Of a stretch of 64,000 nucleotides of DNA, positions 1 to 63,930 are shown piece after piece. The stretch is from Terebella lapidaria (lineage: Eukaryota; Annelida; Polychaeta; Terebellida; Terebellidae). A program made the position numbers and the translations under genes. Each line of letters starts with the position of its first letter. The first letter of the stretch is position 1. The notes beneath the pieces were generated by a model. It had not been told where the DNA came from. It was given only the letters and a program-made list of their open reading frames with translations, and made no database searches. The stretch is taken from assembly GCA_949152475.1 (NCBI GenBank), contig OX424563.1, positions 24,153,001-24,217,000 of the forward strand, given 5' to 3'.

Positions 1-263
1 GGGCAACACCCCTTCAGGACGACGGTTTCCATGTGGTGGCCGTTGCGGTCGCGGTGCGGACACCCCTTCATGAAAAGAGGCCGGTTTCGGGGTCGGAGCT
101 TGACATTTTGTACACACCCCTTCAAGGAGCTGAGGTGTGGGCTGGGCCGGCTGCGGGGTCGTTATTGGTGTCGTTACCGGTACAGTAGTCGTGACAACCG
201 CAGATGTGGAGCGGGGAACGTTGTCCTGTTGTCTGGAAGGTCCTTGCTCCTCAGCACCTTCCC

Positions 264-740
264 CTACTGGTTTGACGACGGGGTCGGAGGTGTTGGTGGG
301 GCCGGTTTAGTTTGGTTACCGGTTTGGTTAGGTACTGACAACACTTGAGCTGTCCTTCTGTCAGTACCGGGACCATTGGGCCGAAATGCTAGCGGTTTCA
401 TGCCGTTACGTACTAGCACATCCTTAAGCCGAAAGCACCGCATCCAGCGATGGCCGGGCTTCTTGCAAAAGAAGCAAACCATGGGTCGTCCGGGTTGCGG
501 GGGTCGATCACCTTTCATCGGGGCCGTTGTTCGTAGGACAGAGAAGATAGCCGTTTCCTCGCATAGTCCATTCTCGTCACTAAGGACACACTGGAAGGCT
601 TCGGCCACCCACTCGCGTGAGCTGGTTGGCACTGAGTGTTCGTCGCAACCTTGTAGGCCGGTAGTGTCACTGTCCGCGGGGTCGTAGTAGGCCGCAATTT
701 GCTCTGGGGTTAGTGTTTCCCCCTGAGTGACTTGTCCCAT
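264..740 (-). other. Zinc-knuckle part of the same LTR element
   Basis: This minus-strand frame contains CFFCKKPGHRWMRC, a CX2CX4HX4C zinc knuckle as in retroelement nucleocapsid regions, followed by a Pro/Thr-rich tail. It lies directly 3' (in element sense) of the gag-like frame, where a nucleocapsid is expected. It is recorded as a part of the fossil element only. Confidence 0.7.
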
Positions 741-806
741 GGCACAGGACAGTTCCTCATTGACAGGGTCGTCTTCCGCGTATCCGCTTGCGGAAATGTC
801 AGCACG

Positions 807-2843
807 TCATGTGCCTCGATGTCGATCTCTGGCTGTCCTCTGTTGACGACTCTCTACCTTGAGAACGGCCGTAAGTGCCTCACTGTAACTGTTAAAAGTG
901 AGGGCACACAGTTTATCGGCAATGGGGTCGGGCTGGCCGTTCACGAATTGTGCAATTACGGTTCGTTGCCGCGACGTTGGCGTAACGTCGTCGAACACTT
1001 GCTCCGCCAGGGCCTGGAGTCGCTCCATGTAGTGTTCCGCGTCCTCTTTTCGTTCCCGCTTGAGGAACGGGAAATCGTCCCGTTTCGACTGTCGACGGGG
1101 CTCGGGTTCCCAGCCCTCTAGGAGTTGGCGACGGAACTCTCCCCAGGGAGTTGCGACCGGGATATTTAGAGCTAGCGCTTCAGCGCGGCCGCGTAGCGTG
1201 CTCCGGAAGGTCGTCGTCTTGTTGAGGTCGGAGTAAGTAAAGGCCGCAGTGAATTGTTCGAAACTCCGAATGTATTGAGTGAGATTGCCCTCCTTAAAGG
1301 TCGCACGCCATTGAGCCATTTTAGCCGTAGCCAACGTTTGGGGCTCAGACGTGAGTCTCTGTGGCGTGGGCGTGTCAACACTCACCGCAACTGGTGTAGT
1401 CGCTGTAGTGGCCGTCGGAGTCGGAACAGCCGAAGTCGCCGGAGCCGTCGTATCTGGGCCGATCGGGGTCGCGTTAGCGGGGGCGGTCGGTGCTGTCGTC
1501 GCGGAGACGGCGAGCGATGCGGCGGGTGGTGCCGTCGTGTGGCTGGGGTCGTGTGGTGCTTGTGCAGCGGGGGCCGGTTGACTGTATGGAGGCGTCACCC
1601 ATGGTATCCCGACTGAGGGTGGGAATACAGCCGGTGGTGGATATCGGTATACCGATCCATCTGGGCATACACCATGGTACACTAATCCGGGTTGTGCACC
1701 ATGATAGCCGGTGTCAGCGATCACGCTGGGGACGCCACCATATCCAGGCGGTGGGTTCGCGTAGCCGACATGCGGTGAATAGTATCCGACAGCTACTCCA
1801 TTTGGAACACCGCTTGTTGCGCCAGGGTATCCGACTGGCGGTGCACCATATCCGTTGGTGTTTCCGACTGATTGTGAGATCGGAGGTCCGATCATTGGCA
1901 CAACATTTTCTGCCGGAGCAGACACAACTTGATCTTGCGACGGATCGAAGCGCGGTTGTTCTCCGGTAGTCGGCGATGGTCGGTGCGTGGTCGGCGCGGG
2001 AGCGCGTGTGTCGGAAGTCGGCGTGTCGGGGTCGCAGGGTCGGCGACTTGATGTCGAGGGTGCTTGTCGGGGTCGCGCTTGTCGCATGGTGGCGCGAGAT
2101 TCCGCCATTGTGTCGCTGGGTCGTTGTTGTCGTAGCGGCGTCGCGATCCGGGTAGCGGTCGTCGTCAGGATGTCTTCGGATGTCGCTCCCGTCTGGCTGG
2201 GTCGTGTGTACTCTACCACCGTAGGCTCGGTCGGTATGCGTGAGTACATTTCTGGCGCGGGGCCGTGTTGTCTCGGCGTCATGGACGGCGCCAGGGGTCG
2301 ATTGGCCGAATAAGCGTTCGGCGGGGTCGATTCCGGAACATTGTCAGACTGACAAACCCACTGTCGTATCCGAGAGTTACTTGGTGGGTGCGTAACCATT
2401 GACGTGTCTATGGTTACCGGCCGAACGTTCACTGCTAATTGTTCTGGGTCGATATCACAATCTACGCTCGCTCTTTGACGTGAGCGCGTATAGTTTCTGT
2501 CGGCAAAGTCACTTTTCTGGGTCGCTCTAGCCGGCGTGGCCGAGTACGCTCTAGCGTGTGCACGCAGAATGTCACTTACTGTATGTGACGGCGCGAGCGG
2601 GTCTTCGTCTAGGAACTCCTGCACCAGGTCGGTAGGCGGCGAAAACGATCTCAGGGACGAATGGTCGCCAATGGAGTCGAAAAGGCCGGACGGTTGTTGC
2701 TCCTGCGACAGTGGAACTGTATCGCTCATGGCAACTGAGCGAGGGCCGGAAGGTCGGAAGGCCGGATTCGGATTGATCGTCACTTCATCATCCGTAGGGT
2801 CGAGTGGCTCACCGCGGGAGGCTCCCGGGGCCAATGCCATCAA
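807..2843 (-). CDS. Gag-like protein of LTR retroelement fossil
   Basis: The open frame encodes 678 residues. Residues 1 to about 490 are low in complexity and rich in Pro, Ser, Thr and Ala, including a Tyr-Gly-Pro-rich stretch around residues 325-390. The last 170 residues (from about 505) look like a Ty3/gypsy retrotransposon gag domain: a Trp-containing helix start (MAQWRATF), a conserved LRGRAEAL segment and a charged region around LKRERKEDAEHYMERL. Gag would form the particle and bind the element RNA. The start is the first Met after the LTR and primer site. It is part of a retroelement and is not a host gene. Confidence 0.7.
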   Translation of the reverse strand: MMALAPGASRGEPLDPTDDEVTINPNPAFRPSGPRSVAMSDTVPLSQEQQPSGLFDSIGDHSSLRSFSPPTDLVQEFLDEDPLAPSHTVSDILRAHARAYSATPARATQKSDFADRNYTRSRQRASVDCDIDPEQLAVNVRPVTIDTSMVTHPPSNSRIRQWVCQSDNVPESTPPNAYSANRPLAPSMTPRQHGPAPEMYSRIPTEPTVVEYTRPSQTGATSEDILTTTATRIATPLRQQRPSDTMAESRATMRQARPRQAPSTSSRRPCDPDTPTSDTRAPAPTTHRPSPTTGEQPRFDPSQDQVVSAPAENVVPMIGPPISQSVGNTNGYGAPPVGYPGATSGVPNGVAVGYYSPHVGYANPPPGYGGVPSVIADTGYHGAQPGLVYHGVCPDGSVYRYPPPAVFPPSVGIPWVTPPYSQPAPAAQAPHDPSHTTAPPAASLAVSATTAPTAPANATPIGPDTTAPATSAVPTPTATTATTPVAVSVDTPTPQRLTSEPQTLATAKMAQWRATFKEGNLTQYIRSFEQFTAAFTYSDLNKTTTFRSTLRGRAEALALNIPVATPWGEFRRQLLEGWEPEPRRQSKRDDFPFLKRERKEDAEHYMERLQALAEQVFDDVTPTSRQRTVIAQFVNGQPDPIADKLCALTFNSYSEALTAVLKVESRQQRTARDRHRGT

Positions 2844-2904
2844 TGCCGGTCAAGTCTGGGTCGATAATCCGAGACTAGCTCAGATCCTGGTCGAACGGCG
2901 CCAA

Positions 2905-3180
2905 TGTGAAGAATATCGTTCACGGCCGATATTAAGCCGGTTTAACTGGGTCGTCGTGTGATTCAATAAGCCGGCAGTTTCAATTTAACTGTTTATTGCG
3001 GTGATAAAGTCTGATGATCAATCACTCACAATCAGGGCCGCACTCTCACCTACGTCGGGTGATATCCCAGTCGAATTATATATATTCCTAGTATAGTCCT
3101 TTATATAACTTGTACATATATCCAATGGTTTCTATATCACTTGTATTCAGTTCGTATATTAATAATCGACAGACTTCACA
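2905..3180 (-). repeat. 5' LTR of the left-edge retroelement (276 bp)
   Basis: The segment starts TGTGAAG and ends CTTCACA, a 7-bp inverted terminal repeat with the TG...CA ends of LTRs. Read on the minus strand it holds a TATATAA box near 3105 and an AATAAA polyadenylation signal near 2996. The TGGCGCC primer-binding-like start lies directly inside, and the gag frame begins about 60 bp further in. The matching 3' LTR would be outside the window, so the boundary rests on these internal signs. Confidence 0.65.
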
Positions 3181-3913
3181 GGAGCTTTTTGTATAGACGT
3201 CCTGTCACTGGGATTTACACTACTCTTCTGCGCAGTAGACCGGGGCCGAGGGACCATGTGGCTGTGTAATTTCCCGCCAAGTGTAAGCGGTGTTGTGATA
3301 GGTTGAATGTGTGGTGCAATGCGCTGATGTCACCGGGAAAGTGGGTTTCCCCGGCTCGTGTTAATACTTGTAATGCCTGTATGTGTGCACGTGATGTATG
3401 GGGTATGTGTGTCAAGTTCTATGTTTAGTAGTCAGTGCATGTAAAGGTCAAGGTCGAGTAAACGGGGCCGAGTGTACTGAGCTAGCGGGGCCGCAGGTGC
3501 GTGGTTTGACCTGTGTATGTAACCATGACTACATGGAGTTTATGCTTGTGATCGTATAGTGTGTACTTGTCCTGTATGTAAGTCATGTAGAATGAATGTT
3601 TGTTGTGGAAATGTGTAGTGCGCGGGAGGGACGGGAGTAACAGTCGCTAAAATTACTACAAATATCTATTGAAATTGTACTAAAACTGTGATGAATTTCA
3701 CTGAAACACACCTGGTTTAGGGTCTGGAAGTGGATGGAGGTCTTTGAAGACATTTGGTGGCAGCCTCGGTCGTGCACAGATGGTACAGCCCTCTTGTCCA
3801 CACTTCTTGATGGTGAACATATAGTGCCGCGATCCGGTGCAGTGATCAAATAGTTCGTTATGTTAGTTAGCTGTGGACTGAAAGTGAAGGAACACATACA
3901 TACATGCATATTA
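3181..3913. other. No gene recognised
   Basis: This is flanking DNA right of the LTR. Short minus-strand open frames here have no recognisable domain. I see no repeat shared with the rest of the window until 3914. Confidence 0.5.
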
Positions 3914-4389
3914 AATAGACGTGGAATCAATACCCAGTATTAAGTATTCCGAGCAAACAAAACAGGGTCCGTTATCCAATCTCATAGTCCGGGGACAGAA
4001 AGTCATATCAGGCATACGAAGTGAGAGAAAACAAAAATAACAGGGAAACTCACGAACCCCCCAAAATGGCCATTAGGAGGTGAAATCAGGTGTTCCGGAA
4101 AGAGTGAGCATTTCCTGCCCCACTAGTGGCACCCGTCATGAATTCCCCAAAATTAACATGAAAATAGATCTAGTTGCATGGCAGACATGGATTTGCTGTA
4201 TTTGTCAACCAGATCATGATGACGTCCATAGAATTTCTTAAACGCAGCTATAAGTCTTGGTAAAACATATCCTTGTCGCAGCAGTTTAGAGACTAGCTGG
4301 GCACTTCGATAGACAAAGTCCTCATATTTGCAACTAGCTCTGGAATAGCGTATAAGTTGAGAAACAAACACACCATATGCCGGTGACAT
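3914..4389 (-). mobile_element. 3' end of an RT-type retroelement (fossil fragment, copy 1)
   Basis: The minus-strand frame (4153-4389) carries a C-terminal signature that I recall from abundant reverse-transcriptase-type ORFs of marine invertebrates: AYGVFVSQLIRYSRA, then LLRQGY and FKKFYGRHHDLV. It is followed by about 240 bp of untranslated tail. Positions 3914-4246 recur nearly base for base at 14505-14839, so this is a dispersed family with a common 3' end. The class (LINE-like or other RT element) cannot be decided from the fragment. No RT core is present. Confidence 0.6.
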
Positions 4390-4682
4390 AGGAATGTTGC
4401 TGTGTTCTATTCTTGGTTTGCTACAACCTCCAAAATTTCAAGTATAATCAAATACAGGCCTTCAATCTTCATTATTTTCAAACCTTTTCGACATCGTTGT
4501 TTTCAGCGTTTTGTTTATTCAGGTCATTAAGTAGCCTAGCCTAGCTTCGCCCATAGCTGGTGGATCTCCTCCTTGGTAGCAGCTTGAAAAGATTGCACCA
4601 GTGTGTCCTCGTTAAACAGATAAATGACAAGTATATAAGCATCTGATCACAAGGCAAAATACTAAGTTCATGGTATCATTGG
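4390..4682. other. No gene recognised
   Basis: This sits between the retroelement fragment and a 364-bp-family repeat. I see nothing I can name. Confidence 0.4.
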
Positions 4683-4935
4683 GGACAGATTTAACGTCCA
4701 CCAGCAGTGACACCGACTCGGTGATATTAAAGTGAGTACCAACTTACTACCGCCAATACAATTAAATTTTGACGATGACAAATGCGAACGTAACATACAA
4801 AATTTTGAAGTAAAAACAAAGCCCGAACAAAGAGTTTATCCAAAGACACAGTGGCGTCATCAGGGGCAGACTGTGTGATAAATGTACATGTAGTTGTTTC
4901 TACTGTACACCTGATGGAATTAGTATACAACTGCC
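4683..4935 (-). repeat. Inverted single copy of the 364-bp repeat family
   Basis: Read on the minus strand this matches the 10940-13406 array unit. It has GAGTCGGTGTCACTGCTGG with GGACGTTAAATCTGTCCCC near 4690-4735, and the CCTGATG(A)CGCCA(G)TGTG block near 4840-4880. It is more diverged than the array copies. Confidence 0.8.
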
Positions 4936-4949
4936 CACCAACCTATGAA

Positions 4950-5340
4950 CATTTGTGAGAGCAGACGCGGAAGCGCTGGTACACCTTGCGCTTGGTCTCT
5001 ATGATATCCTACGAGCAGAATTTCCTTCAGTGATGGCCTTTGTCTGGTGATAGTTGCTGACATATAGCTGAAATCATCATTGCTGCGTGATGTGTGAATA
5101 CTGGTCCTAGTCTGGTCGGAGGCTTCAGAATTCTTGTGTGTAGGAACCTCAAGTCTTGTTGTGTCGTTGGAGTGACGCGAAACTCGCCACAATTGTACGT
5201 GGTATAATTAGTGATGACGGAAAATAGGTCAGCATCATCACAAATCTATCAATAAATTCCAGCTGCGAGTTATAAGATACTGCGACCAGAATCTTTTCAT
5301 TTTACTGACATCCATGGTAGAATGGCAATCCACCAGCTTT
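4950..5340. repeat. Dispersed repeat, copy A (pair with 6160-6540)
   Basis: About 380 bp is shared with 6160-6540 at roughly 80% identity by eye. On the minus strand both copies can encode a similar peptide containing LEVPT, KN, EASDQTRTSIHTSRS, then FSYMSAT. The conserved peptide suggests decayed coding sequence of an unidentified element or duplicated exon. I do not recognise the family. Confidence 0.6.
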
Positions 5341-5344
5341 ATTC

Positions 5345-6150
5345 TCTGGAAGATGGCTTACATCTTAGTGTGCTTCATTCGGTGAAAATGTAGGCCATGG
5401 CTGAGGCTTCAAACTCAGGTTCTTCCAATGACCTGCTGCATGGAAAATGCATTAAATCGGATAAAGCATTTGGCGCTTGGGTGAGGGGAATAAAAAGGAC
5501 ATCGGCGCTTCGCGCGTCTGTAATTATCCCCCCCCCCCCACCCAGTGCCTCGTGTTATATCATATACAAAAAATGACTAAATGACTACAAACCCATTATA
5601 GGGCAAATACCTAGAATTAGCATATGAGCAAGCACTATTATTTTTTAAAAAATTTAAATATATAAAAAAAATTGATGATGCGAGATGACAAACTTAAGTT
5701 AAACAATTCTACGCCTCACCGTTCATTTTGAAATTTACGTTATTAAACATGCTATTTTTCAAATAATTTCACCTATCCATGCCGACGGTCCGAGCCTTAC
5801 TTTTGAGATTTCCCCCTCAAAATCATACGATAATATTTCGAAGATTGTGCTGTGAGAACTGATCTTTCATGGCTAGATGCTCATGTCCATGGGGACTACG
5901 TTTCAAACCCTTGTACACCTATGGAACCTTCATTCATTGTGTTGGGGGATAAGATGTAGGACAATTAAGCAAGAACAGCCAGATATAGCCTACTGTGTTT
6001 TGCATGCCTGTTGTATGTCACATGCGGCAGGCACCTGCTTGGTGTGTACCAAACTGACATGCTGCTCAAAGTGTAGCTTATTCTGGATGCCTTCGCACAA
6101 GCCTGCCAGTCAATTCACATACCAGCATACCGACGATTGCTATCGACAAG
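5345..6150. other. Spacer with a short poly-C tract, no gene
   Basis: A run of about 13 C lies near 5528-5541. The rest is AT-rich with a short A/T block at 5640-5675. A cysteine-containing plus-strand frame (5877-6266) runs into the next repeat copy and is not convincing. Confidence 0.4.
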
Positions 6151-10939: not shown

Positions 10940-13406
10940 GCTTGTGATTAGGTACTTATCATATATCTATTCCATGGGGTTTGTTTCGGATTTATAATTT
11001 ATTTTCATAGGTTGTTGCGCAGTTCTAAACTAATTCCATCAGGTGTACAGTAGGACACAACTACATTTAACACACTGTCTGGCCCTGATAACGCCAGTGT
11101 GTATTTGGATCAACTATTTGGCCGGGCTTTGTTTCTATTCCAAAATATTGTATTTTTCGTTTGTTATTGGCATCATTAAAATCTCACTGTATCGGTGGTA
11201 ATAGATTGATACTTACATTCATACCATTGAGTCGGTGTCACTGCTGGCGGACGTTAAATCTGTCCCCGAGGATACCATCAACTCAGTAGCCTTCGGGCTT
11301 GTGATTAGGTACTTATGTACTTGTCATATATCTGTTCCATGGGGTTTGTTTCGGATTTTTAAATTGTCCTCATAGGTTGTTGGGCAGTTGTATACTAATT
11401 CCATCAGGTGTACAGTAGAAACAACTATATTTTACACATTGTCTGCCCCTGATGACGCCAGTGTGTTTTTGGATAAACTATTTGGTCGGGCTTTGTTTCT
11501 ATTGCAAAATATTGTATTTTTCGTTTGTTATTGGCATCATTAAAATCTCACTGTATCCGTGGTAATAGACTGATACTTACATTCATACCACTGAGTCGGT
11601 GTCACTGCTGGCGGACGTTAAATCTGTCCCCGAGGATACCATTAACTCAGTAGCCTTCGGGCTTGTGATTAGGTACTTATGTACTTGTCATATATCTGTT
11701 CCATGGGGTTTGTTTCGGATTTCTAAATTGTTTTCATAGGTTGTTGGGCAGTTGTATACTAATTCCATCAGGTGTACAGTAGAAACAACTATATTTTACA
11801 CACTGTCTGCCCCTGATGACGCCAGTGTGTCTTTGGATTAACTATTTGGTCGGGCTTTGTTTCTATTGCAAAATATTGTATTTTTCGTTTGTTATTGGCA
11901 TCATTAAAATCTCACTGTATCGATGGTAATAGATTGATACTTACATTCATACCACTGAGTCGGTGTCACTGCTGGCGGACGTTAAATCGGTCCCCGAGGA
12001 TACCATCAACTCAGTAGCCTTCGGGCTTGTGATTAGGTACTAATGTACTTGTCATATATCTGTTCCATGGGGTTTGTTTCGGATTTCTAAATTGTTTTCA
12101 TAGGTTGTTGTGCAGTTGTATACTAATTCCATCAGGTGCGCAGTAGAAACAACTATATTCTACACACTGTCTGGCCCTGATGACGCCAGTGTGTCTTTGG
12201 ATAAACTATTTGGTCGGGCTTTGTTTCTATTGCAAAATATTGTATTTTTCGTTTGTTATTGGCATCATTAAAATCTCACTGTATCGGTGGTAATAGATTG
12301 ATACTTACATTCATAACAACACTGAGTCGGTGTCACTGCTGGTGGACGTTAAATCTGTCCCCGAGGATACCATCAACTCAGTAGCCTTCGGGCTTGTGAT
12401 TAGGTACCTATGTACTTGTCATATATCTGTTCCATGGGGTTTGTTTCGGATTTCTAAATTGTTTTCATAGGTTGTTGGGCAGTTGTATACTAATTACATC
12501 AGGTGTACAGTAAAAACAACTATATTTTACACACTGTCTGCCCCTGATGACGCCAGTGTGTCTTTGGGTAAACTATTTGGTCGGGCCTTGTTTCTATTGC
12601 AAAATATTGTATTTTTCGTTTGTTATTGGCATCATTAAAATCTCACTGTATCGGTGGTAATAGATTGATACTTACATTCATACCACTGAGTCGGTGTCAC
12701 TGCTGGCGGACGTTAAATCTGTCCCCGAGGATACCATCAACTCAGTAGCCTTCGGGCTTGTGATTAGGTACTTATGTACTTGTCATATATCTGTCCCATG
12801 GGGCTTGTTTCGGATTTCTAAATTGTTTTCATAGGTTGTTGGGCAGTTGTATACTAATTCCATCAGGTGTACAGTAGAAACAACTATATTTTACACACTG
12901 TCTGCCCCTGATGACGCCAGTGTGTCTTTGGATAAACTATTTGGTCGGGCTTTGTTTCTATTGCAAAATATTGTATTTTTCGTTTGTTATTGGCATCATT
13001 GAAATCTCACTGTATCGGTGGTAATAGATTCATACTTACATTCATACCACTGAGTCGGTGTCACTGCTGGCGGACGTTAAATCTGTCCCCGAGGATACCA
13101 TCAACTCCGTAGCCTTCGGGCTTGTGATTAGGTACTTATGTACTTGTCATATATCTGTTCCATGGGGTTTGTTTCGGATTTCTAAATTGTTTTCATAGGT
13201 TGTTGGGCAGTTGTATACTAATTCCATCAGGTGTACAGTAGAAACAACTATATTTTACACACTGTCTGCCCCTGATGACGCCAGTGTGTCTTTGGATAAA
13301 CTATTTGGTCGGGCTTTGTTTCTATTGCAAAATATTGTATTTTTCGTTCGTTATTGGCATCATTAAAATCTCACTGTATCGGTGGTAATAGATTGATACT
13401 TACATT
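10940..13406 (+). repeat. Tandem array of a 364-bp repeat, about 6.8 units
   Basis: The block GTCGGTGTCACTGCTGGCGG occurs at 11231, 11595, 11959, 12326, 12690 and 13054, giving spacings of 364, 364, 367, 364 and 364. The units are almost identical, differing by scattered single bases and one 3-bp insertion. The array stops abruptly after TTACATT at 13406. Units carry no long open frame. Isolated, more diverged copies of the same sequence are at 4683-4935, 13731-13862, 15065-15620, 16858-17300 and 26690-27048, so the array was amplified from a dispersed element. Confidence 0.95.
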
Positions 13407-21152: not shown

Positions 21153-21843
21153 CATAATCAAAAGAACATGGATGCATACACTTCTTCCTAAAGTGCGTAT
21201 GTAATGCACTTCATATGTACTAATATTGACGAATGCTATACATCATAGCATTTTTGGCATATTGGTAGAGTGTGAAGAGATAGGTGACATGTTCGGTGAA
21301 ATATGTTGTAATTAGGGCATTTCGGCCCGAAATGCCCTTATGGTTTTGTCTGGTTTTTTTTTTTTTTTTTTTTCTTCTTTTTTTTTTACTTTCCGCCGTT
21401 TTGGTTTCCGATCAATAACTCGGGAACGCCTAAACGGATCTTGTCCAAATTTACACCACTGGTCAGAAATATTACATGGAAGACCCCTATTGTTTTGGAG
21501 GCGGCTCCGGGGTCCGTGAGGTCCGTGAGGATGAAATCAAGGTTGATTTTGAGACTTGGTTTCCGATCGATAACTCAAAAAGTATTCATGCAATGGCAAG
21601 TATTCTCTGCATGGGAGTTCATATACCACCAAGGAAGAACCCTATTGATTTTGGGATCACTCCGTCGAACGACCTTTGACCTAGAGCTCGGAAGAATTTT
21701 TGCTGATTCATCCTTGAGGCTTTCATGCATATCTCGGAAACGGTGCGTCGTAGAGCGAAACGGAGCTCAATTTCGGCCTCCTGGCATTAGACAAACTAGT
21801 CTAGGGGTATCTTGGGTCGAAACGACCCCTGGTGTCGATTTTT

Positions 21844-24494
21844 AGGTTACCGGACCTTTGGTCCGATAACCTATTGCCGTGGCGTTGCGTCCGTCGTCCG
21901 TCGTCCGTCCGTCCGTCCACATTTTTATCATTAAAGTTTACAGTCGAATATTTCTGAAATTTTGCACAAAAATACCTAAAAATATTTCCAGGAAAGGTTT
22001 TTTTTAGTTTTTTGATTTTCGCATTTTTTTCAAAATGGCGGCTGTTTTCGTCGAAAAATGGCCAATTTTGGACTTTGACGGTTGTTTTCCCAAAATCTGT
22101 TCAGTAACTTTTTTTCTTATTGATGCATGACACTCCTCCTATGTACCCCTGTGACATGTATAAATTTCGTTGCCCTTGAATCGCTCGAAGTGGGCCATTT
22201 TGGGCCCAAACTCGGCCCAAATGGGACTTTCCCATGTTAAATTCTCCTATGCTTTATAATGGGACACATTAAGCCTAATATCTCACTTAAAATTGAAATT
22301 AGAGACTAAGAATCAATTGTGGACATATAGGAAATGATATATGCTGAATACTCTTGTGACCTTGAATTTGACCTCTGACCTCGGTTTCGAGGTCAGAGCG
22401 GCCGTTTTCGTCTAAAAATGGCCAATTTTGGACTTTGACGGTCGTTTTCTCAAAATCTGTTCAGTAACTTTTTTTTTTATTGATGCATAACACTCCTCAT
22501 ATGTACCCCTGTGACATGCATAAATTTCGTTGCGCTTGAATCGCTCGAAGTTGGCCATTTTGGGCCCAAACTCGCCCCAAATGGGACTTTCCCATGTTAA
22601 ACACTCAGCCTAATATCTCACTTAATATTGAGATTAGAGACTAGGAGTCAATTGTGGACATATAGGAAATGATATATGCTGGATATTCTCGTGACCTTGA
22701 ATTTGACCTCTGACCTCGGTTTCAAGGTCAGAGCGGCCATTTTCGTGAAAAATTGGCCAATTTTGGACTTTGACGGTCCTTTTCTCAAAATCTGTTCAGT
22801 AACTTTTGTTTCTTATTGATGCATGACACTCCTCATATGTACCCCTCTGACATGTATAAATTTCGTTGCTTTTGAATTACTTGGAAAGGGCCATTTTGGG
22901 CCCAAACACGGCCCAAATGGGACTTTCCCATGTTAAATTCTCATATGCTTTATAATGGGACACATTAAGCCTAATATCTCACTTAATATTGAGGTTAGAG
23001 ACTAGGAATCAATTGTGGACATATAGGAAATGATATATGCCGAATATTCTTGTGACCTTGAAGTTGACCTCTGACCTCGGTTTCAAGGTCAGAGCACAAA
23101 ATGGCTAACATCTCATTCATTATCGACTTTACAGCTTAGGAATCAATTGTGGACATATAGGAAATGATATATGCTGAATATTCTGATAACCTTGAATTTG
23201 ACCTTTGACCTAATTTTCAAGGTCACAGGACAAAATGGCTAATATCTCACTTATTTTCGATTTTACAGGTTAGGGATTAATCGTGGTCATATAGGAAATG
23301 ATATATGCTGAATATTCTCGTGACCTCGAATTTGACCTCTGATCTCAGTTTCAAGGTCAGAGCACAAAATGGCTAATATCTCGCTTATTATCGACTTTAC
23401 AGCTTAGGAATCAATTGTGGACATATAGGAAATGATATATGCCGAATATTCTGATAACCTTGAATTTGACCTTTGACCTCATTTTCAAGGTCACAGGACA
23501 AAATGGCTAATATCTCACTTATTATCGATTTTACAGCTTAGGGATTAATTGTGGACATATAGGAAATGATATATGCTGAATATTCTCGTGACCTCGAATT
23601 TGACCTCTGACTTCAGTTTCAAGGTCAGAGCACAAAATGGCTAATATCTCGCTTATTATCGACTTTACAGCTTAGGAATCAATTGTGGACATATAGGAAA
23701 TGATATATGCCGAATATTCTGATAACCTTGAATTTGACCTTTCACTTCATTTTCAAGGACACAGGACAAAATGGCTAATATCTCACTTATTATCGATTTT
23801 ACAGCTAAGGGATCAATTGTGGGCATATAGGAAATGATATATGCTGAATATTCTTGTGACCTTGAATTTGACCTCTGACCTCGGTTTCAAGGTCAGAGTA
23901 CAAAATGTCTAATATCGCGCTTATTATCGACTTTACAGCTTAGGAATCAATTGTGGACATATAGGAAATGATAAATGCCAAATATTCTGATGACGTTGAT
24001 TTTGACCTTTGACCTCATTTACAAAGTCACATGACAAAATGGCTAATATCTCACTTATTATCGATTTTACAACTAAGGGATCAATTGTGGACATATAGGA
24101 AATGATATATGCTGAATATTATCATGACCTTGAATTTGACCTCTGACCTCATTTTCAGGATCACCGGACAAAATGGCTAATATCTCGCTTATTATCGACT
24201 TTACAGCTTAGAAATCAGTTGTGGACATATAGAAAATGATATATTCTGAACATTGTCATGACCTTGAACTTGACCTTTGACCTCATTTTCAAGGTCACAG
24301 GACATAATGGCTAATATCTCGCTTTTTATTGACTTTACAGCTTAAGAATCAGTTGTGGACATACTAGAAATGACATATGCCGAATATTATCGTGTCCTTG
24401 AATTAACCAATGACCTTATTTTCAAGGTCACGGGACAAACTACTAATATCTAAAATATGTATTGTCCGGTAACCTTTCTTAGCCCTTGGGCTAA
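21844..24494 (+). mobile_element. Nested Helentron-type element with about 134-bp tandem core (2651 bp)
   Basis: It sits inside the poly-T between two core repeats of the host element. The 5' end is a hairpin (GGTTACCGGACC-TTT-GGTCCGATAACC). The 3' end is the palindrome TTAGCCCTTGGGCTAA, whose last four bases CTAA fit CTRR, followed by T. After a CGTCCGTCCGTCC stretch come three longer repeats of about 325-360 bp, then about ten units of 133-135 bp. These are marked by (A)ATCAATTGTGGACATATAGG at 23141, 23276, 23409, 23543, 23677, 23812, 23945, 24080, 24213 and 24347. No protein is encoded. Related fragments lie at 38560-39660, 43286-43314 and 51240-51400. Confidence 0.75.
22369..24440 (+). 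promoter_or_regulatory. Array of nuclear-receptor-type sites (DR1 and extended half sites) in the tandem core
   Basis: Most units carry TGACCTCTGACCT or TGACCTTTGACCT, a perfect DR1 (two AGGTCA half sites one base apart) as bound by RXR, HNF4 and COUP-TF type receptors. I count about nine perfect DR1s. Most units also carry TTCAAGGTCA and TGACCTTGA, the extended half site used by ERR and NR5A type receptors. The motifs are seen directly. Any binding or regulatory effect is inference. Confidence 0.6.
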
Positions 24495-25462
24495 TTTTTT
24501 TTTTTTGCCGACTCGGCACTTCCTGTTTGGCCGTATCTCGAAAACGGTGCATCGTAGAGCGAAACGGAGCTCAATTTCGGCCTCCTGGCACTAGACAAAG
24601 TAGTCTAGTGTGTATCTTGGGTCGAGACGACCCCTGGTGTCAAATTTTTTTTCGCCGACTCGGCACTTCCTGTTTGGCCATATCTCAGAAACGGTGCGTC
24701 GTAGAGCGAAACGGAGTTCAATTTCAGCCTGCTGGCACTAGTCAAACTAGTCTAGTGTGTATCTTCGGTCGAGACGACCCCTGGTGTCGAATTTTTTTTT
24801 CGCCGACTCGGCACTTCCTGTTTGGCCGTATCTCGGAAACGGTGCGTCGTAGAGCGAAACGGAGCTCAATTTCGGCCTTTTGGCACTAGACAAACTAGTC
24901 TAGTGGGTATTTTCGGTCGAGACGACCCCTAGTGTCGAATTTATTTTCGCCGACTCGGCACTTCCTGTTTGGCCGTATCTCGGAAATGGTGCGTCGTAGA
25001 GCGAAACGGAGCTCAATTCCGGCCTCCTGGCACTAGACTAACTAGTCTAGAGGGTATCTTGCGTCGAGACGACTTCTGGTGTCGAATTTTTTTTTGCCGA
25101 CTCAGCACTTCCTGTTTGCCATATCTCAGAAACGGTCCGTCGTAGAGCGAAACGCAAAGATGCCTAAGGACGGGGTATGTCACTTTAACTTTGACCACGG
25201 ACAGATTCAGAGTCATTATGGTTCTAGACGCGGTCTCTTAGGTAAATGTTAGGTAGGAATAGAACTCACACGAAATGCCCCAAGGCATCTTCAGGCCTTG
25301 ACGTCTAGTTACATAACAAAATAGGGTCGCCATTGAAAGTCCAATTGTACGTGTGTGCGCTATATCACATGTATAAACCTATCAATATGTAGTGAGCATT
25401 ACCAATATAACATACAGGTAAATGAGCACTGTTTTTCAACACATGAGTACAGACTTTGGACC

Positions 25463-33677: not shown

Positions 33678-34949
33678 TCAAAAGGGGGTCTTTGGGAAGG
33701 CCGCGATCCACTCCCATGCGGCGGCTAGGTCATCGCTAAAGTGGTGCACATACACCGGATGCTGGCGGTCCAGATGTCTGGTCATGGTCTCGATGCAGAG
33801 GCGTCGAGCAGCATCCGGGTCTTGGGTCGGAACCACCATCGGCGTGTTCAGTGTGCTGGCCAGCTGACAGGCAGACTTCAGGTAATGGACTTGGTTCCTG
33901 TGCTTGGCGGCCGATATCGCACGGTGATGGTCAATCCCTACCTTGCCCACTCCAACACACGAGGGGTGCGCCGACATCTCCTCCAGGTCCTGCCGTAGAT
34001 TCGCGGGTAAGGTGGCGTGGCGAGCAGCCTCGTGGGGATGCAACCCAACAGTCAGCCGGAGCAGCGGTTTCCCCACCAGCTTGTGGAAGCAGCTGAAACT
34101 GCGGGCGAAGGTGATGGAGACCACCAGGTGATCGGTGGCGATGGAAGCCGACCGGTTGAGGTGCATCCAATTATGCAGAGATCCAGATCCTGTGATCCGC
34201 AGGCACTCCAGGCAGATGGCCAGGTGTATGTGGCTGTCGGTGGTGACGCGTAAGTATCGGCTGGCAGGTGAGCCCGGCTGAAGACCGCACAAGGCTTCCT
34301 TCGTGGCGTCGGACCATTGTGCCACTAACATCACCACCATTTTCCACTGCAGTACCGCTTCTGGAACTTGAGGAGGGTCAAAGTGATACTTGGTCAACTT
34401 CTGGTGGCGACCTGGGTTGATGACGCTCCCCAGCACCCAAGGCCCGAAGAGCTGTTCCTCACTATAGTGCAGTCCGGGGACGACCTGATGGGCATGCGCC
34501 TCCATAACGTAGGCTAGGAGCTCCGCAGCGGTGACGACTCCCGCAAGATCTATCAGGAACTGCAAGAGGGTGAGCATCCCGCCCACCCACTGCTGGAGTC
34601 TGGACTCTGTGAAGGCGGTGTTGTGGTCTCGCTGGGTGTGCTCCATCCGCAACTTGCACGGCGTAGACTCTCCCTTCCGACATGTCCAACAAGTCTTCTC
34701 CGGCGAAAAATACCACGGGAGGTGGACTTCCTGGCCATGGCGACCAACCCTGGTAACGGTGGCATCGCAGACAGGGCACTGCGTGCCGCGAGCCTTCGGC
34801 GCAGGGGACTCCGCGGGTTGCTTCCGGGAACCAGAGGCAGTGCGACCTCCAAGGCAAGACCGAAGGTCACGACCTCCAGTGGCAACGGAAGGTCCTGGCT
34901 CCTCCAACTCCTCCTGATAGTCGGGTACGAGCGTACTATCGTCCTCCAT
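33678..34949 (-). other. TatD-related DNase-like ORF with N-terminal zinc-finger region (part of the Ty3-like fossil)
   Basis: Residues 1-60 are acidic and low in complexity. About 57-110 hold Cys/His pairs (CPVCDATVTRVGRHGQEVH, then CWTCRKG and CKLRMEH). From about 240 TatD-type metallohydrolase motifs appear in order: TDSHIHL (HxH), VGLHPHEA, GVGKVGIDHH, and VYVHHFSDD. TatD proteins are metal-dependent 3'-5' DNases. TatD-like sequence continues left to about 33475. The ORF lies about 90 bp downstream of the pol tail on the same strand, in the place where other LTR elements keep an extra gene. That it belongs to the element is inference from this position. Confidence 0.7.
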
Positions 34950-38559: not shown

Positions 38560-39660
38560 TTTTGTTGCCCTTGAATCGCCGGTCTGCATGTGGCGGCCAT
38601 TTTGAATTTTCGACAGGTTGGTGAAAAAAAACTTTTTCGTCCCAAATCAAGTCACTATGGTATCCAACCAAAAAAATTTCCCCCTTTGAAAACTTTTTTG
38701 GATTTCACGCAATTTTTCCTTCACAATGGGAGCTATATGGAGTAAACTCCTAGAACACTTAAAGATGGAGCTTACATATAGGCACATTCAAATAGGAAAT
38801 CATATATTGTGGTTTCGGTGGTGATCTTAAATTTGACCTTCAATGACCTCGAAAGGTCAAAGCGCCCTTTTTTGTCAGAAAATTGGTCAATTTTGGTCTT
38901 TGGCGGCCATTTTTTCAAAAACTGTTCAGACGGTTTCAGATTATCGTTTGAAAAGATCACCCTTATGTACCTTTGTGAAATGTCTGAGTTTCTTTGCCCT
39001 TGAATCGCTCAAAGTGGGCCATTTTGGCCCAAACTTGGCCCAAATGGGACTTTCCCATGTTAAATTCTCTTGTGCTTTATAATGGAACATATTATTGCTG
39101 ATATCTCACTCAATATTGAGATTAGAGATTAGGAATCAATTGTGGACATAAAGGAAATGATATAAATGAATATTCTCATAACCTTGAATTTCACATTCGA
39201 CCTAATTTTCAAGGTCACAGGACAAAATGGCTAATATCTCGCTCCTTATCGACTTTATAGCTTGGGAATCAATTGTGGACATACAGGAAATGATATACGT
39301 CAAATTTCTTGATGACCTTGAATTTGGCCTTGATCTCATTTTTCAAGGTCAGAGCACAAAATGGCCAATATATCGCTTATTATCGACTTTACAGCTGAGG
39401 AATCAATTGTGGAGTTTTCGTGACCTTTGATCTTATCTCAAGGTCAGACAACAAAGTGGCTAATATCTCGCTTATTATCAACTTTACAGCTTAGGAATCA
39501 ATTGTGGACATATAGGAAATGACATATGCCGAATATTCTCATAAGCTTGAAGTTGACCTTTGACATTATTTTTTTTGTCAGAGCACGAAATGGCTAATAT
39601 CTCGCTCATTATCGACTTTCCAACTTAAGAATCAATTGTAAGCATATAGAAAATAATGTC
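38560..39660 (+). repeat. Degenerate 134-bp-core Helentron-type sequence inside the long-TIR element
   Basis: Repeated GGAATCAATTGTGGACATA and GACCTTGAATTT... blocks match the core of the 21844-24494 element with lower identity. No clear ends are preserved. Confidence 0.7.
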
Positions 39661-39749
39661 CCCTTTGGGCAGACATTGTTGAAAAATTACCATTGCAGAC
39701 TTTGAGACCTTAACATTGTACAGTTCTCCGTTAATATTTCTAAGCTAAT

Positions 39750-55698: not shown

Positions 55699-57782
55699 AG
55701 GGCATTTCGGCCCGAAATGCCCTTATGGTTTTGTCTGGGTTTTTTTTTTTTTTTTTTTTTTTTTTTCTTCTTTTTTTTTTACTTTCCGCCGTTTTGGTTT
55801 CCGATCAATAACTCGGGAATGCCTGAACGGATCTTGTCCAAATTTACACCACTGGTCAGAAATATTACATGGAAGACCCCTATTGTTTTGGAGGCGGCTC
55901 CGGGGTCCGTGAGGTCCGTGAGGATGAAATCAAGGTTGATTTTGAGACTTGTTTTCCGATCGATAACTCAAAAAGTATTCATGCAATGGCAAGTATTCTC
56001 TGCATGGGAGTTCATATACCACCAAGGAAGAACCCTATTGATTTTGGGATCACTCCGTCGAACGACCTTTGACCTAGAGCTCGGAAGAATTTTTGCTGAT
56101 TCATCCTTGAGGCTTTCATGCATATCTCGGAAACGGTGCGTCGTAGAGCGAAACGGAGCTCAATTTCGGCCTCCTGGCACTAGACAAACTAGTCTAGGGG
56201 GTATCTTGGGTCGAAACGACCCCTGGTGTCAAATTTTTTTTCGCCGACTCGGCACTTCCTGTTTGGCCGTATCTCGGAAACGGTACGTCGTAGAGCGAAA
56301 CGGAGCTCAATTTCGGCCTCCTGGCACTAGACAAACTAGTCTAGGGGGTATCTTGGGTCGAAACGACCCCTGGTGTCGATTTTTTTTTTCGCCGACTCGG
56401 CACTTCCTGTTTGGCCGTATGTCGGAAACGGTGCGTCGTAGAGCGAAACGGAGCTCAATTTCAGCCTCCTGGCACTAGACAAACTAGTCTAGTGTGTATC
56501 TTCAGTCGAGACGACCCCTGGTGTCGATTTTTTTTTTCGCCGACTCGGCATTTCCTGTTTGGCCGTATCTCGGAAACGGTGCGTCGTAGAGCGAAACGGA
56601 GCTCAATTTCGGCCTCCTGGCACTAGACAAACTAGTCTAGTGTGTATCTTGGGTCGAGACGACCCCTGGTGTCGAATTTTTTTTTCGCCGACTCGGCACT
56701 TCCTGTTTGGCCGTATCTCGGAAACGGTGCGTCGTAGAGAGAAACGGAGCTCAATTTCGGCCTCCTGGCACTAGACAAACTAGTCTAGTGTGTATCTTGG
56801 GTCGAGACGACCCCTGGTGTCGAATTTTCTTTTGCTGACTCGGCACTTCCTGTTTGGCGGTATCTTGGAAACGGTGCGTCGTAAAGCGAAACGGAGCTCA
56901 ATTTCGGCCTTCTGGCACTAGACGAAGTAGTCTAGGGGTATCTTGGGTCGAAACGACCCCTGGTGTCGATTTTTATTTTTTGCCGACTTGGCACTTCCTG
57001 TTTGGCCGTATCTCGGAAACGGTGTGTCGTAGAGCGAAACGGAGCTCAATTTCGGCCTCCTGGCACTAGACAAACTAGTCTAGTGTGTATCTTGGGTCGA
57101 GACGACCCCTGGTGTCAAATTTTTTTTCGCCGACTCAGCACTTCCTGTTTGGCCGTATGTCGGAAACGGTGCGTCGTAGAGCAAAACAGAGTTCAATTTT
57201 GGCCTCCTGGCACTAGACAAACTAGTCTAGTGGGTATCTTGGGTCGAGACGACCCCTGGTGTCGATTTTTTTTTCGCCGACTCAGCACTTCCTGTTTGGC
57301 CTTATCTCGAAAACGGTGCGTCGTAGAACGAAACGGAGCTCAATTCCGGCCTTATGGCACTAGACAAACTAGTCTAGTGGGTATTTTCGGTCGAGACGAC
57401 CCCTAGTGTCGATTTTATTTTCGCCGACTCCGCACTTCCTGTTTGGCCGTATCTCGGAAATGGTGCGTCGTAGAGCGAAACGGAGCTCAATTCCAGCCTC
57501 CTGGCACTAAACTAACTAGTCTAGAGGGTATCTTGCGTCGAGACGACTTCTGGTGTCGAATTTTTTTTTGCTGACTCAGCACTTCCTGTTTGCCATATCT
57601 CAGAAACGGTCCGTCGTAGAGCGAAACGCAAAGATGCCTAAGGACGGGGTATGTCACTTAAACTTTGACCATGGACAGATTCAGAGTCATTATGGTTCTA
57701 GACGCGGTCTCTTAGGTATATGTTAGGTAGGAATAGAACTCACACGAAATGCCCCAAGGCATCTTCAGGCCTTGACGTCTAG
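55699..57782 (+). mobile_element. Helentron-type element with 148-bp tandem core, copy 2 (uninterrupted)
   Basis: Same hairpin head (AGGGCATTTCGG) and same tail (ACGTCTAG, then T) as 21313-25308, nearly identical in sequence. The core has unit starts GCCGACTC at 56243, 56391, 56539, 56687, 56834, 56982, 57129, 57276, 57423 and 57570, a period of 147-148 bp, with about eleven copies of the ATCTCGGAAACGGT block. Each unit carries the hairpin CTAGAC-AAACTA-GTCTAG. Long frames through the core come from the period of 147 (a multiple of three) and are not genes. Confidence 0.8.
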
Positions 57783-60456: not shown

Positions 60457-63400
60457 CTATATTTCAGTGATGCATGCAACTATTGCTTTGTGATCAGACC
60501 AAGGACATTCTAATGTAGTTGTCGATAGAGAGTCCATGTTTGTGAATATTAAATCTACCACTGAGCCATGATCTGTTGTTGGTGTATTCATTTTGTTGAT
60601 ACAGTTGAAAGTATAGTTCATATATTGTTCTAGACCAGCATGTGCCTTGTCACGATGATCAAAATTAAAATCTCCCAAAATAACTAGATTCATTGTGGGA
60701 TCAACAATACACAATAATTCCTTTGTCATTATACCTTTGAACATCTCAAATGAAAATGCAGGTGATCTGTATAGAAACACTATTTGAATAGGATTGGTCA
60801 AGTCACCAGTTTTGATGAAAGTGAATTCTAAGGACACAGAACTAAAGTGGCTGAAGATGAGAAAATGGTCGGAGTGCTTCTTTTGGACAAGAGAAAGCAA
60901 ACCATGATGAGGTCGAGATTTTGATGTGCCATCTAATGCTTCGTCATTTCTGAGAGGACTGAATTGATCAAAGGTATAATTAGCATCTGGATCATTTTCA
61001 GTTAACCTAGATTCTGCAAATGAAACAACATCAGCATATATAAAATTTGCATCTGCCATTATATCTTGAAAATGAGCATGAACTGATCGTGCATTATGAA
61101 AGACGATCTTGAAGGTGTTTGTGTTCATCTGATACAGGGGTGTATAGCAGAGCTTAACAGCAGCATCTTGTCTTAGTCTCTCCAATTCTTTTGTAACAGC
61201 ATCACACGTTGCTATTTTGTCTTCATTTAGTTCTAAGATATGGAGATTTGCAATATTCTGTGCTCTACTTAGTGCCACATAATGAATATGGTCTCTCCGA
61301 GTTGACCCCAAGTGAACAACAACCTTTGGCAATGTTTCTCCTTGAGCTTTGTGAACTGTTTTGGCTGCTGCAGACCTTAGAGGAAACTGTATTCGGACAG
61401 CATGTACATTTTTCCGCACAGTAAACTTTCGCTTAATGTCGAAAATTGGTGTCCATTCTGATGAAATTTGGGGAGAATATAATGCTCGATATTTTCGTCT
61501 CTGATCTTTGCCAATTTTCTCGTTATCAAAGTGGACCCACAAAATACTTGGCCTTGTTGTGGTGTTCATCTTATATTCGATATGTTTTAGGACACAACCA
61601 GAGCCATTTGTTAGCCCATCATCAACAGATATATTTGCAACAACCTCATAACGTAATCCGGGTGACACTCTAAGAGGATTGTGTAAGCCTGCTGTCCTAG
61701 TTGGATCAGTAGTTACTGTCAGAATTATTTTTTCTTTCACATCATTTGCAAAATCACCTAAAATAGAATCTAAAGCAGGTATAGTCACTTTTTGATTCAG
61801 ACTTTTGTCAAAGAGAGAACTGTTGAATTTGTTCACCATTGCATTCGTTGTGAATAAATGAGGTAAGTCAAGGAGTTCAGACTCGTCTTCTGGTTGGCAT
61901 TGTCTTTCTTTTAGTGTGTCAATATCATTCTGAGTATGTTTACCTTCTCGCAAGCGATTCAGCAATAACGCAAACTGCTGATCATCTTTCTGTCTCATGA
62001 TCTCATCAAGTTCAAAAGCAGAGAAATACTCCTTCCAAAGATTTGTTGCAAGTGGTCCATATCCAGAAGTCAAGTCTTTGAATATCCAACCATCACCTAC
62101 AGGCTGTAACTGACACAAGTCGCCAATTAGTATCATGTGGACTCCACCGAAGACCTTGGTATTTCCTTTGATTTGCTGCAATCTTAGGTTTATGAAATTA
62201 AGCATGTCATGGCCGACCATAGATACTTCATCAATGAAGACTACAGAAAGATTTCGATACTTTGTTCGAAGAGTGTTCAGCTTTTCCGTGTCTAGTGGTT
62301 TACAAACTTTATAACCTTGACTCACTGGTAGGAACAATGCGGAATGTATAGTTGTTCCACGGATACCGAAAGCAGCTTTACCAGTTGGCGCCAAGAGGAG
62401 TATTCGGCAATCAAGTGGATTTTCTCCTTCACAAGAACAAAGGTAACGATGCAGTGTTTGATATAATGTATTGGTAACTACAGATTTTCCAACACCGGCG
62501 CCGCCAGTCAATATAACCCTTAATGGCTCTTCTTTGGTTTTTATCCAGTGGACAACGTGTGAATAAAATTCTCTTTGTTTTCGATTGAGAGACTGGACTA
62601 ATTGCAAATATTCAGCTTGAGGAAGTCTATTGGGTACGGATATCTCATTGGCCACTGAACTTGTTGATCCAATAGTATCACCTAAAATATCAGACTGCAT
62701 TTGTGAGCATTGCTTCGGGTCAAAATAGATGTATTTTTGGCTTTCTGTTGAACCAATCTCTTCATCTAAGGCATTTTCTTCTTGGGCACCAGGTATAAGA
62801 TTGTCATAAACTTCTTCGTCATCAAAGTTATGGGATTTTTCAGCAACCTCATCTAGTATTTCTGTGTAGTTTGCATAGTCTCGGTACTTTTGACCAATTG
62901 CTTGTTCAACTGCTTTGAAATGTGCCTCGTACGTGTCAAATGTTCCCAACAGATCTTTGTCTTCATTTCTCCATGGTAAGAACAGCATCAGCTTTTCCCG
63001 ACAGAAATTTTCATAGTCTGACTTGCGGTTATAATTTACAAATCGAATGACCTTTGGTTTGGCTCTTTTTGTGAATAGTGTACCATTTGGCAATGCTAAA
63101 ATGATATTCGACTTTCTGCCGTTTTCATCATTTTCTTTGTTATCAAGTTCATTGTTATCATCATATATATCAGCTTCTTTGTCAACGGCAGGACCCTCAT
63201 CCTCTGTGGCACTTTGTTTAGGTTTGGTAGCATTATACTGAACATTCAATTTCGATGCATAATCTGCAAGACACCAGTTTTCTAATTGTCCAGGACGTTT
63301 ACTATATCTGTCGATGATATTCTTGGTTTCAACGTCTGTTGATTCTTCATCCAACTCTTCCAAATCAGTTTTACTTTTCAATAAAAAAATTCGGTCTGTG

Positions 63401-63930
63401 TGTGGTGATGTGTTTACGAATATTACATCTCTGGTACATTTTGATAGTGGTAGCTGTAAAACCAGATACACAGCTTCTTGAGCACAAACTTCTACACTTT
63501 TTAGGAACATATTTCCAATGTGCCGAACACTTTCTTTTATGTCCATATTGCCCGCTCTGGTTTCTTTGCATGCTCGATCTAATAATGCACTCATTCCCTT
63601 CTGAGACTTGTTGATGTAATTGACAATATACATCGCACATGCATAGGGATCTAGTATAAATTGCAGATCATGATTGGCCTTCCAGGCTGATAGTAATTGT
63701 TTACAATAAGCATTTACCCTTATGTCACAAGGATCACGTTTCAAGTATATTTTAGCATCTGTTATGGAACTACGTATAGCTTTTATATACTGGGATTCTG
63801 TCATATGGAGCTCACGTAAGAATTCTTTAAATGATAATTTGATACCATCCTTATTATCAACCAACATGTTGAATTCTTTTAAGCCTTTCAGCATTTGAAT
63901 CGGTACCATCTGAATCTGAATCAGTACCAT
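60457..63930 (-). CDS. Helentron Rep/helicase-endonuclease polyprotein, C-terminal 1157 residues
   Basis: The 5' part (Rep nuclease) lies off the right edge. Seen here: a Helitron Rep-to-helicase linker (WKANHDLQFILDPYACAMYI, then YINKSQKGMSALL; EAVYLVLQLPLSKCTRDVIF; LENWCLADYASKLNVQY). Next is a PIF1-type 5'-3' helicase with Walker A LTGGAGVGKS (about 477), Walker B VFIDEVSM (about 562), GDLCQLQPVGDG and TVHKAQGETLPK with YVALSRAQN. Last is a C-terminal APE-like endonuclease (about 940-1157: FHNARSVHAHF, LGDFNFDH, SDHKAIV). Helicase plus C-terminal endonuclease marks the Helentron branch. It mobilises the element by rolling-circle-like replication. The first 13 residues (MVLIQIQM...) are probably spurious: upstream coding (IPPMPRTMILVPVDN) is in another frame, so about one indel lies near 63900. 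Otherwise uninterrupted. Confidence 0.9.
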   Translation of the reverse strand: MVLIQIQMVPIQMLKGLKEFNMLVDNKDGIKLSFKEFLRELHMTESQYIKAIRSSITDAKIYLKRDPCDIRVNAYCKQLLSAWKANHDLQFILDPYACAMYIVNYINKSQKGMSALLDRACKETRAGNMDIKESVRHIGNMFLKSVEVCAQEAVYLVLQLPLSKCTRDVIFVNTSPHTDRIFLLKSKTDLEELDEESTDVETKNIIDRYSKRPGQLENWCLADYASKLNVQYNATKPKQSATEDEGPAVDKEADIYDDNNELDNKENDENGRKSNIILALPNGTLFTKRAKPKVIRFVNYNRKSDYENFCREKLMLFLPWRNEDKDLLGTFDTYEAHFKAVEQAIGQKYRDYANYTEILDEVAEKSHNFDDEEVYDNLIPGAQEENALDEEIGSTESQKYIYFDPKQCSQMQSDILGDTIGSTSSVANEISVPNRLPQAEYLQLVQSLNRKQREFYSHVVHWIKTKEEPLRVILTGGAGVGKSVVTNTLYQTLHRYLCSCEGENPLDCRILLLAPTGKAAFGIRGTTIHSALFLPVSQGYKVCKPLDTEKLNTLRTKYRNLSVVFIDEVSMVGHDMLNFINLRLQQIKGNTKVFGGVHMILIGDLCQLQPVGDGWIFKDLTSGYGPLATNLWKEYFSAFELDEIMRQKDDQQFALLLNRLREGKHTQNDIDTLKERQCQPEDESELLDLPHLFTTNAMVNKFNSSLFDKSLNQKVTIPALDSILGDFANDVKEKIILTVTTDPTRTAGLHNPLRVSPGLRYEVVANISVDDGLTNGSGCVLKHIEYKMNTTTRPSILWVHFDNEKIGKDQRRKYRALYSPQISSEWTPIFDIKRKFTVRKNVHAVRIQFPLRSAAAKTVHKAQGETLPKVVVHLGSTRRDHIHYVALSRAQNIANLHILELNEDKIATCDAVTKELERLRQDAAVKLCYTPLYQMNTNTFKIVFHNARSVHAHFQDIMADANFIYADVVSFAESRLTENDPDANYTFDQFSPLRNDEALDGTSKSRPHHGLLSLVQKKHSDHFLIFSHFSSVSLEFTFIKTGDLTNPIQIVFLYRSPAFSFEMFKGIMTKELLCIVDPTMNLVILGDFNFDHRDKAHAGLEQYMNYTFNCINKMNTPTTDHGSVVDLIFTNMDSLSTTTLECPWSDHKAIVACITEI

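Follow-up and report, generated by a model that had tools for sequence, protein, structure and literature searches.

Element A and its setting

The window analysed here is a 64-kb stretch of the Terebella lapidaria genome. On its forward strand, at positions 21844–24494, lies a mobile element of about 2.65 kb, termed element A, which was delimited from its termini, its tandem core and a scan for open reading frames. At the 5' end, a subterminal repeat, AGGTTACCGGACC, and its imperfect inverted partner, GGTCCGATAACCT, can be read from the sequence (21844–21872), and a CGTCCGT-type microsatellite located by the tandem repeat finder follows in the left module (21888–21917). The core opens with two half-site-bearing units at wider spacing (22275–22970; profile matches at 22275 and 22610, spacings of 335 and 361 bp) and continues as a 134-bp tandem array of 11.1 copies, in which a copy has at most four half-sites of the AGGTCA type (22971–24451, from the repeat finder and motif positions). 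The 3' subterminal repeat GTCCGGTAACCT (24464–24475) and the terminal palindrome TTAGCCCTTGGGCTAA (24479–24494), both read from the sequence, complete the element, and all of these features share its strand. There is no open reading frame of 130 amino acids or more inside it. An earlier note had described 22369–24440 as a transposable element with nuclear-receptor sites arrayed in its tandem core. Termini, array and motif positions agree in supporting a transposable element with half-sites arrayed in its core, but it extends further than was proposed, and the 134-bp repeat, although real, forms a strict array only from 22971.

By its sequence-visible features, element A is a HINE, that is, a non-autonomous, protein-less Helentron. 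It has subterminal inverted repeats of the 11–15 bp expected (AGGTTACCGGAC at 21844 and GTCCGGTAACCT at 24464–24475), which are also present at L018 and L044, a palindrome that follows the right repeat at the 3' end, and a tandem core with a left microsatellite and no coding capacity. A T-rich target is seen for two copies. The copy in the window entered a T-run within a monomer of E, a further element of HINE-like type, and a second complete copy lies between T-runs in the random stretch L018 (1389–3061 region), where it runs from AGG to CTAA between TTTTT and TTTT. The right repeat of element A stands about 19 bp from the 3' end, outside the 38–60 bp given for mite HINEs in the relevant part of PMC4067079; this spacing was not treated as defining HINEs because it is given for one animal group. 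A degenerate second stretch of A units, recognised by unit profile matches, is found at 38789–39679 on the forward strand. Unit positions 126–134 of element A read CAAAATGGC, which we take to resemble a YY1-type core; the same string is also present in the left module and in core B, described below.

Element E occurs twice in the window, each time on the forward strand. The first copy (21314–25299), recognised by its ends AGGGCATTTCGGCCCGAAATGCCCT and CGAAATGCCC plus AAGGC...GCCTT, is interrupted by element A, and the second (55699–57773) is uninterrupted, with the T-run invaded by A in the first copy visible in it. The tandem repeat finder places a 147-bp monomer array of the first copy at 24498–25154; neither AGGTCA nor TGACCT occurs in this array, and there are no half-sites at 56123–57628 of the second copy.

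The window is rich in mobile-element reading frames. On the reverse strand, 60457–63930 is part of a Helentron with a PIF1 helicase and an endonuclease, as is L042; the Helitron_like_N domain of the partial Helentron lies just beyond the window edge, and its 4-kb continuation past the window contains no AGGTCA or TGACCT. A 423-aa reading frame matching TatD DNase is present at 33678–34949 (reverse strand), and another tandem array, with a 364-bp unit in 6.7 copies that are 96% alike, at 10948–13406. No RNA family reached the gathering threshold in the window.

Half-site arrays in the window and across the genome

Within element A the DR1 arrangement, AGGTCA-N-AGGTCA, appears as nine perfect copies of TGACCTNTGACCT, at 22369, 22704, 23065, 23199, 23467, 23869, 24003, 24137 and 24271, spanning 22369–24283 on the forward strand. 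The estimate of about nine perfect DR1s in 2 kb is thereby confirmed. Nine is also the total for the whole window on that strand, with none in the other direction, and none of 500 dinucleotide-preserving shuffles of 22369–24440 yielded a perfect DR1. The same stretch contains 29 TGACCT and 10 AGGTCA, where the shuffles average 0.8 and 0.3. The unit profile recognises 13 units between 22275 and 24439, among which TGACCTTGA is perfect in six, the DR1 in nine and TTCAAGGTCA in nine. The fixed order of TGACCTTGA, DR1 and TTCAAGGTCA holds as the earlier note had it, but not its statement that each unit carries them, as all three are perfect in only four of the 13 (starts 22610, 22971, 23775 and 24177). 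The string TCAAGGTCA corresponds in sequence to the extended monomer site of the NR5A/ERR type.

These motifs are extremely abundant. Exact patterns were counted over 761.6 Mb, with each pattern read backwards serving as its control. The DR1 pattern TGACCTYTGACCT occurs 78,456 times, compared with 102 for the reversed pattern, and 48,883 of these DR1s stand in the A-type context TTTGACCTYTGACCTC. The monomer-type site TCAAGGTCA occurs 364,916 times against 5,590 for its control, a 65-fold difference. A 32-base pattern of the 5' end was counted 2,114 times and a 35-base pattern of the 3' end 3,790 times, both with controls of zero; both patterns are common to A elements and to the B elements introduced below. 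Motifs were also counted in a random sample of 18 stretches of 10 kb, two of the 20 drawn having proved not to exist. After a complexity filter, TCAAGGTCA is its top 9-mer, with 77 occurrences spread over nine stretches, and among hexamers repeated as X-N-X the commonest is AGGTCA with 29, the next non-overlapping hexamer having six. The TCA extension is present on 77 of the 261 AGGTCA in these stretches, and DR1s occur in six of the 18. When A-like units are masked, 12 copies of TCAAGGTCA remain in the random stretches and the window together, six of them in E and the others scattered.

The half-sites recur in a second core. Core B has the termini of A, a different core and monomers near 454 bp, and is complete in L044; a 33-base B pattern containing three half-sites occurs 7,247 times genome-wide. 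Order and orientation of the four half-sites are alike in A and B, at spacings of ER8/DR1/DR6 in A and ER4/DR4/DR6 in B. The two cores are related beyond their half-sites, so the sharing is a matter of descent and not of independent gain.

They are also found in a second family. Family E has termini unlike those of A and 147-bp monomers, which in L021, L045 and L046 carry AAGGTCAAGGTCAAAGGTCATCC or variants of it; a 21-base piece of this string is present 3,071 times in the genome. The half-sites of the E monomers read so far have a DR0/DR1 arrangement and a single orientation. The census pattern for E units caught only part of them, so that its counts of two in the window, four in L021, eight in L046 and none in L045 are partial. 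Some copies of the family contain receptor half-sites and others an unrelated stretch in their place, and this presence and absence could make it possible to date when the half-site block was gained or lost. DR1s are found in L026 as well, where positions 1–5800 consist of tandem repeats of about 1.05–1.1 kb marked by GCCAAGT and the locus also has three perfect DR1s in other sequence.

Conservation of the half-sites

Whether the half-sites are better kept than the rest of the unit is what the earlier note had suggested asking. Profile matches had to align at least 100 of the 134 bases, which reduced the unit sets (67 to 61, 232 to 220 and 130 to 119), and the test set consists of 164 units that were not picked by motif, 45 from random stretches and 119 anchored on the 3' end. 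Changes on terminal branches were taken as a proxy for decay after insertion, and internal changes, restricted to branches bearing four or more tips, as those passed on in the element lineage.

Terminal changes fall evenly over the unit, at 2.94 per site in the extended half-sites, 3.00 in the DR1 and 2.98 elsewhere. Equal decay of half-sites and their neighbours, which was one half of what the earlier note had set against its own idea, is thus what these branches show, and nothing points to preservation of the sites by the host once a copy has inserted. Internal changes tell the two kinds of site apart, in a split that was made after the window-conservation ranking of the 164 units had been seen: the extended half-sites have 0.78 per site versus 1.44 in the rest (three of 133 circular shifts as low; Fisher p = 0.066), while the DR1 has 1.42. 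The same comparison over all 339 units gives 1.28 versus 2.32 for the extended half-sites (five of 133 shifts, p = 0.098). The extended half-site therefore appears modestly constrained in the element lineage and the DR1 does not.

Among the 164 units, TCAAGGTCA belongs to the best-kept blocks: nine of 134 windows, counting itself and those that overlap it, score at least as high, and for TGACCTTGA 29 of 134 do; the best 9-base window is TTTCAAGGT. Two blocks without half-sites, AAATGATAT and CAAAATGGC, are equally well kept. Intact copies in the same set number 106 of 160 for TCAAGGTCA, 92 of 155 for TGACCTTGA and 58 of 138 for the DR1. The halves of the DR1 score 0.908 and 0.935 and the unit mean is 0.905. 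The DR1, with RXR or HNF4 as its reader, is accordingly not supported as the maintained feature, being no better conserved than its neighbours in the 164 units. Its lack of a deficit of internal changes makes a monomer site of the ERR/NR5A type the better fit.

Other unit sets were also compared. In 61 units, the 24 core half-site positions are 94.3% identical to the consensus, versus 89.8% elsewhere (two of 133 shifts as high; rank test p = 0.09). The unit profile with which units were collected was itself built from site-bearing units, a slight bias in favour of the sites. The 3'-anchored replicate (20 loci, 18 with units, 119 units) gives a weaker result than the 220-unit count below, with identities of 0.929 versus 0.897, nine of 133 shifts as high, and an odds ratio of 1.57 (p = 0.14) or 1.79 (p = 0.046), depending on the tree. 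Tree counts on 220 units give 5.71 versus 5.67 terminal and 0.71 versus 1.82 internal changes per site (Fisher p = 0.0002), and a locus-level count on these units finds no significant difference (Fisher p = 0.68). The 220-unit result is not used as main evidence because 159 of its units come from C1 loci that were found via the DR1 or TCAAGGTCA.

Candidate receptors and a possible role of the sites

The genome encodes receptors that could read such sites. The receptor zinc-finger family has 65 matches, many of which are exon pieces, and four DNA-binding domains were compared with solved structures. One is closest to HNF4-alpha (142 bits; next kind 104), one to ERR (149 bits; next kind 119) and one to NR5A2 (81 bits; next kind 67), while the fourth matches RXR-alpha best (100 bits), its top matches being vertebrate RXR and insect USP only. 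COUP-TF, TR2/4, RAR, TR, NR4A and others are presumably encoded too, having been named by eye from domain translations.

It is proposed that these elements are HINEs whose candidate monomer-type receptor sites may serve the element rather than the host, a tentative reading whose chances fall somewhat short of even. The AGGTCA-type half-sites, four per core monomer, keep a fixed order, and two of the four bear the TCA extension, which orphan receptors of the NR5A and ERR types, binding as monomers, would read. A host receptor of this kind would bind the core, at many sites per copy, and might loosen nucleosomes over the element in the germ line or early embryo; copying of the opened element by trans-acting Helentron enzymes could then become more frequent. 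On this view several spacings would be tolerated, the DR1 among them. This proposal is favoured because TCAAGGTCA is abundant and recurs in B and E, because the extended half-sites are less changed, because ERR and NR5A domains are encoded, because A and B share four half-sites at different spacings, and because NR5A2 unwraps nucleosomes. It is weakened by the modest degree of constraint, by the equally kept blocks without half-sites, by the existence of E elements that lack half-sites, and by the consideration that an element encoding no protein does not itself have to be transcribed.

Some of these observations suit another account, in which the half-sites are passengers in an old, amplified HINE monomer and have no role, their numbers reflecting copy number and their sharing among A, B and E reflecting descent or exchange of core segments. 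This is quite possible, if on the improbable side. Background rates of terminal change, well-kept blocks without half-sites, half-site-free E copies in the window and the concentration of most DR1s in one A-type context (48,883 of 78,456) all agree with it. It accounts less readily for the fewer internal changes at extended half-sites, for half-sites that are kept between A and B although the spacers differ, and for the DR0/DR1 half-sites of E, whose termini and monomer sequence are different. Alternatively, the half-sites could be bound by the transposon's own Rep/helicase, like the iterons of rolling-circle replicons. Repeated short sites would be natural in an element moved by rolling-circle type machinery, and they recur in two HINE-like families; yet the partial autonomous Helentron, a candidate partner, has together with the 4 kb beyond it two lone TGACCT (59376 and 63048) and no array, some E copies do without half-sites, and the sequence matches the receptor consensus in full, TCA extension included (77 of 261 AGGTCA in the random stretches). 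Such a function is improbable.

Slightly less probable again is that DR1s recruit RXR, HNF4 or COUP-TF and were selected as DR1s. The excess of perfect DR1s (78,456 versus 102), the encoded HNF4 and RXR domains and the DR1s of E and L026 speak for this, but the motif is intact in 58 of 138 units, its halves (0.908 and 0.935) are near the unit mean of 0.905, its internal changes equal those of the rest (1.42 versus 1.44) and B has the same half-sites at DR4. A structural explanation was considered as well, in which TGACCTTGAA and TTCAAGGTCA, which form perfect inverted repeats in the A unit, are kept as two hairpin arms. Changes on both sides number seven in 3,236 cells, against 7.3 expected by independence, and two of them are complementary; in addition, half-sites share one direction in those E monomers that were read. 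In the absence of any excess of compensatory changes between the arms this explanation was rejected, and it is highly improbable.

Parts of the proposal that receptor sites serve the element have counterparts in known systems. Tandem-core HINEs, mobile elements with receptor sites and Helitrons with sites for one factor are each already known singly. Cg_HINE/Pearl of bivalves and DINE-1/HINE, as described in parts of PMC7492417 and PMC4067079, resemble element A in their subterminal inverted repeats, left inverted partner, 3' palindrome, left GTCC-type microsatellite, tandem monomers of the 134–180-bp class and T-rich insertion. They differ in that the relevant portions of these accounts mention no receptor or other transcription-factor sites, the term 'transcription factor' having no occurrences in the text of PMC7492417. 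Human Alus, with about 1.2 million HNF4 sites (PMC3252374, in part) and with DR2 elements (PMC1785376, in part), are likewise non-autonomous mobile elements that spread receptor sites; unlike A, an Alu is a SINE without a tandem array, and binding has been shown for it (PMC3252374), A being known from sequence. According to sections of PMC11102866, NR5A2 recognises TCAAGG(C/T)CA in monomeric form, and it targets this motif in mouse SINE B1 and unwraps nucleosomes. This places a monomer site within a mobile element, as in A, with the difference that binding and unwrapping are demonstrated for B1. Caenorhabditis Helitrons, in the relevant part of PMC6927752, are rolling-circle elements with dense clusters of sites for one host factor, HSF-1, and a selfish use of them was speculated on by the authors; their sites are heat-shock elements, and they are canonical Helitrons rather than HINEs. 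A combination of these features with receptor half-sites, as seen here on a large scale and in two families whose termini differ, was not found in the open-licence literature searched, and no relevant open-licence paper was found for element A's own strings or for TCAAGGTCA with a transposable element.

A wider version of the proposal, which is on balance unlikely, is that several Helentron-type families gained or kept arrays of orphan-receptor sites and depend on one pioneer-like receptor of the NR5A/ERR type to be opened in the germ line or early embryo. With a receptor as gatekeeper in this way, its monomer site would have become one of the commonest nine-letter words in the genome. Comparing lineage-level with terminal changes can be used generally to probe which of the two, mobile element or host, benefits from a motif that the element carries. 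If sites of this kind do serve the element, a group of DNA transposons would use a nuclear receptor as a host factor, and some 365,000 monomer-type receptor sites would be present in one invertebrate genome. The titration, buffering or rewiring of receptor networks by mobile arrays would then become testable. These elements and related families have scattered receptor-like sites widely, which may aid their own spread or alter gene control.
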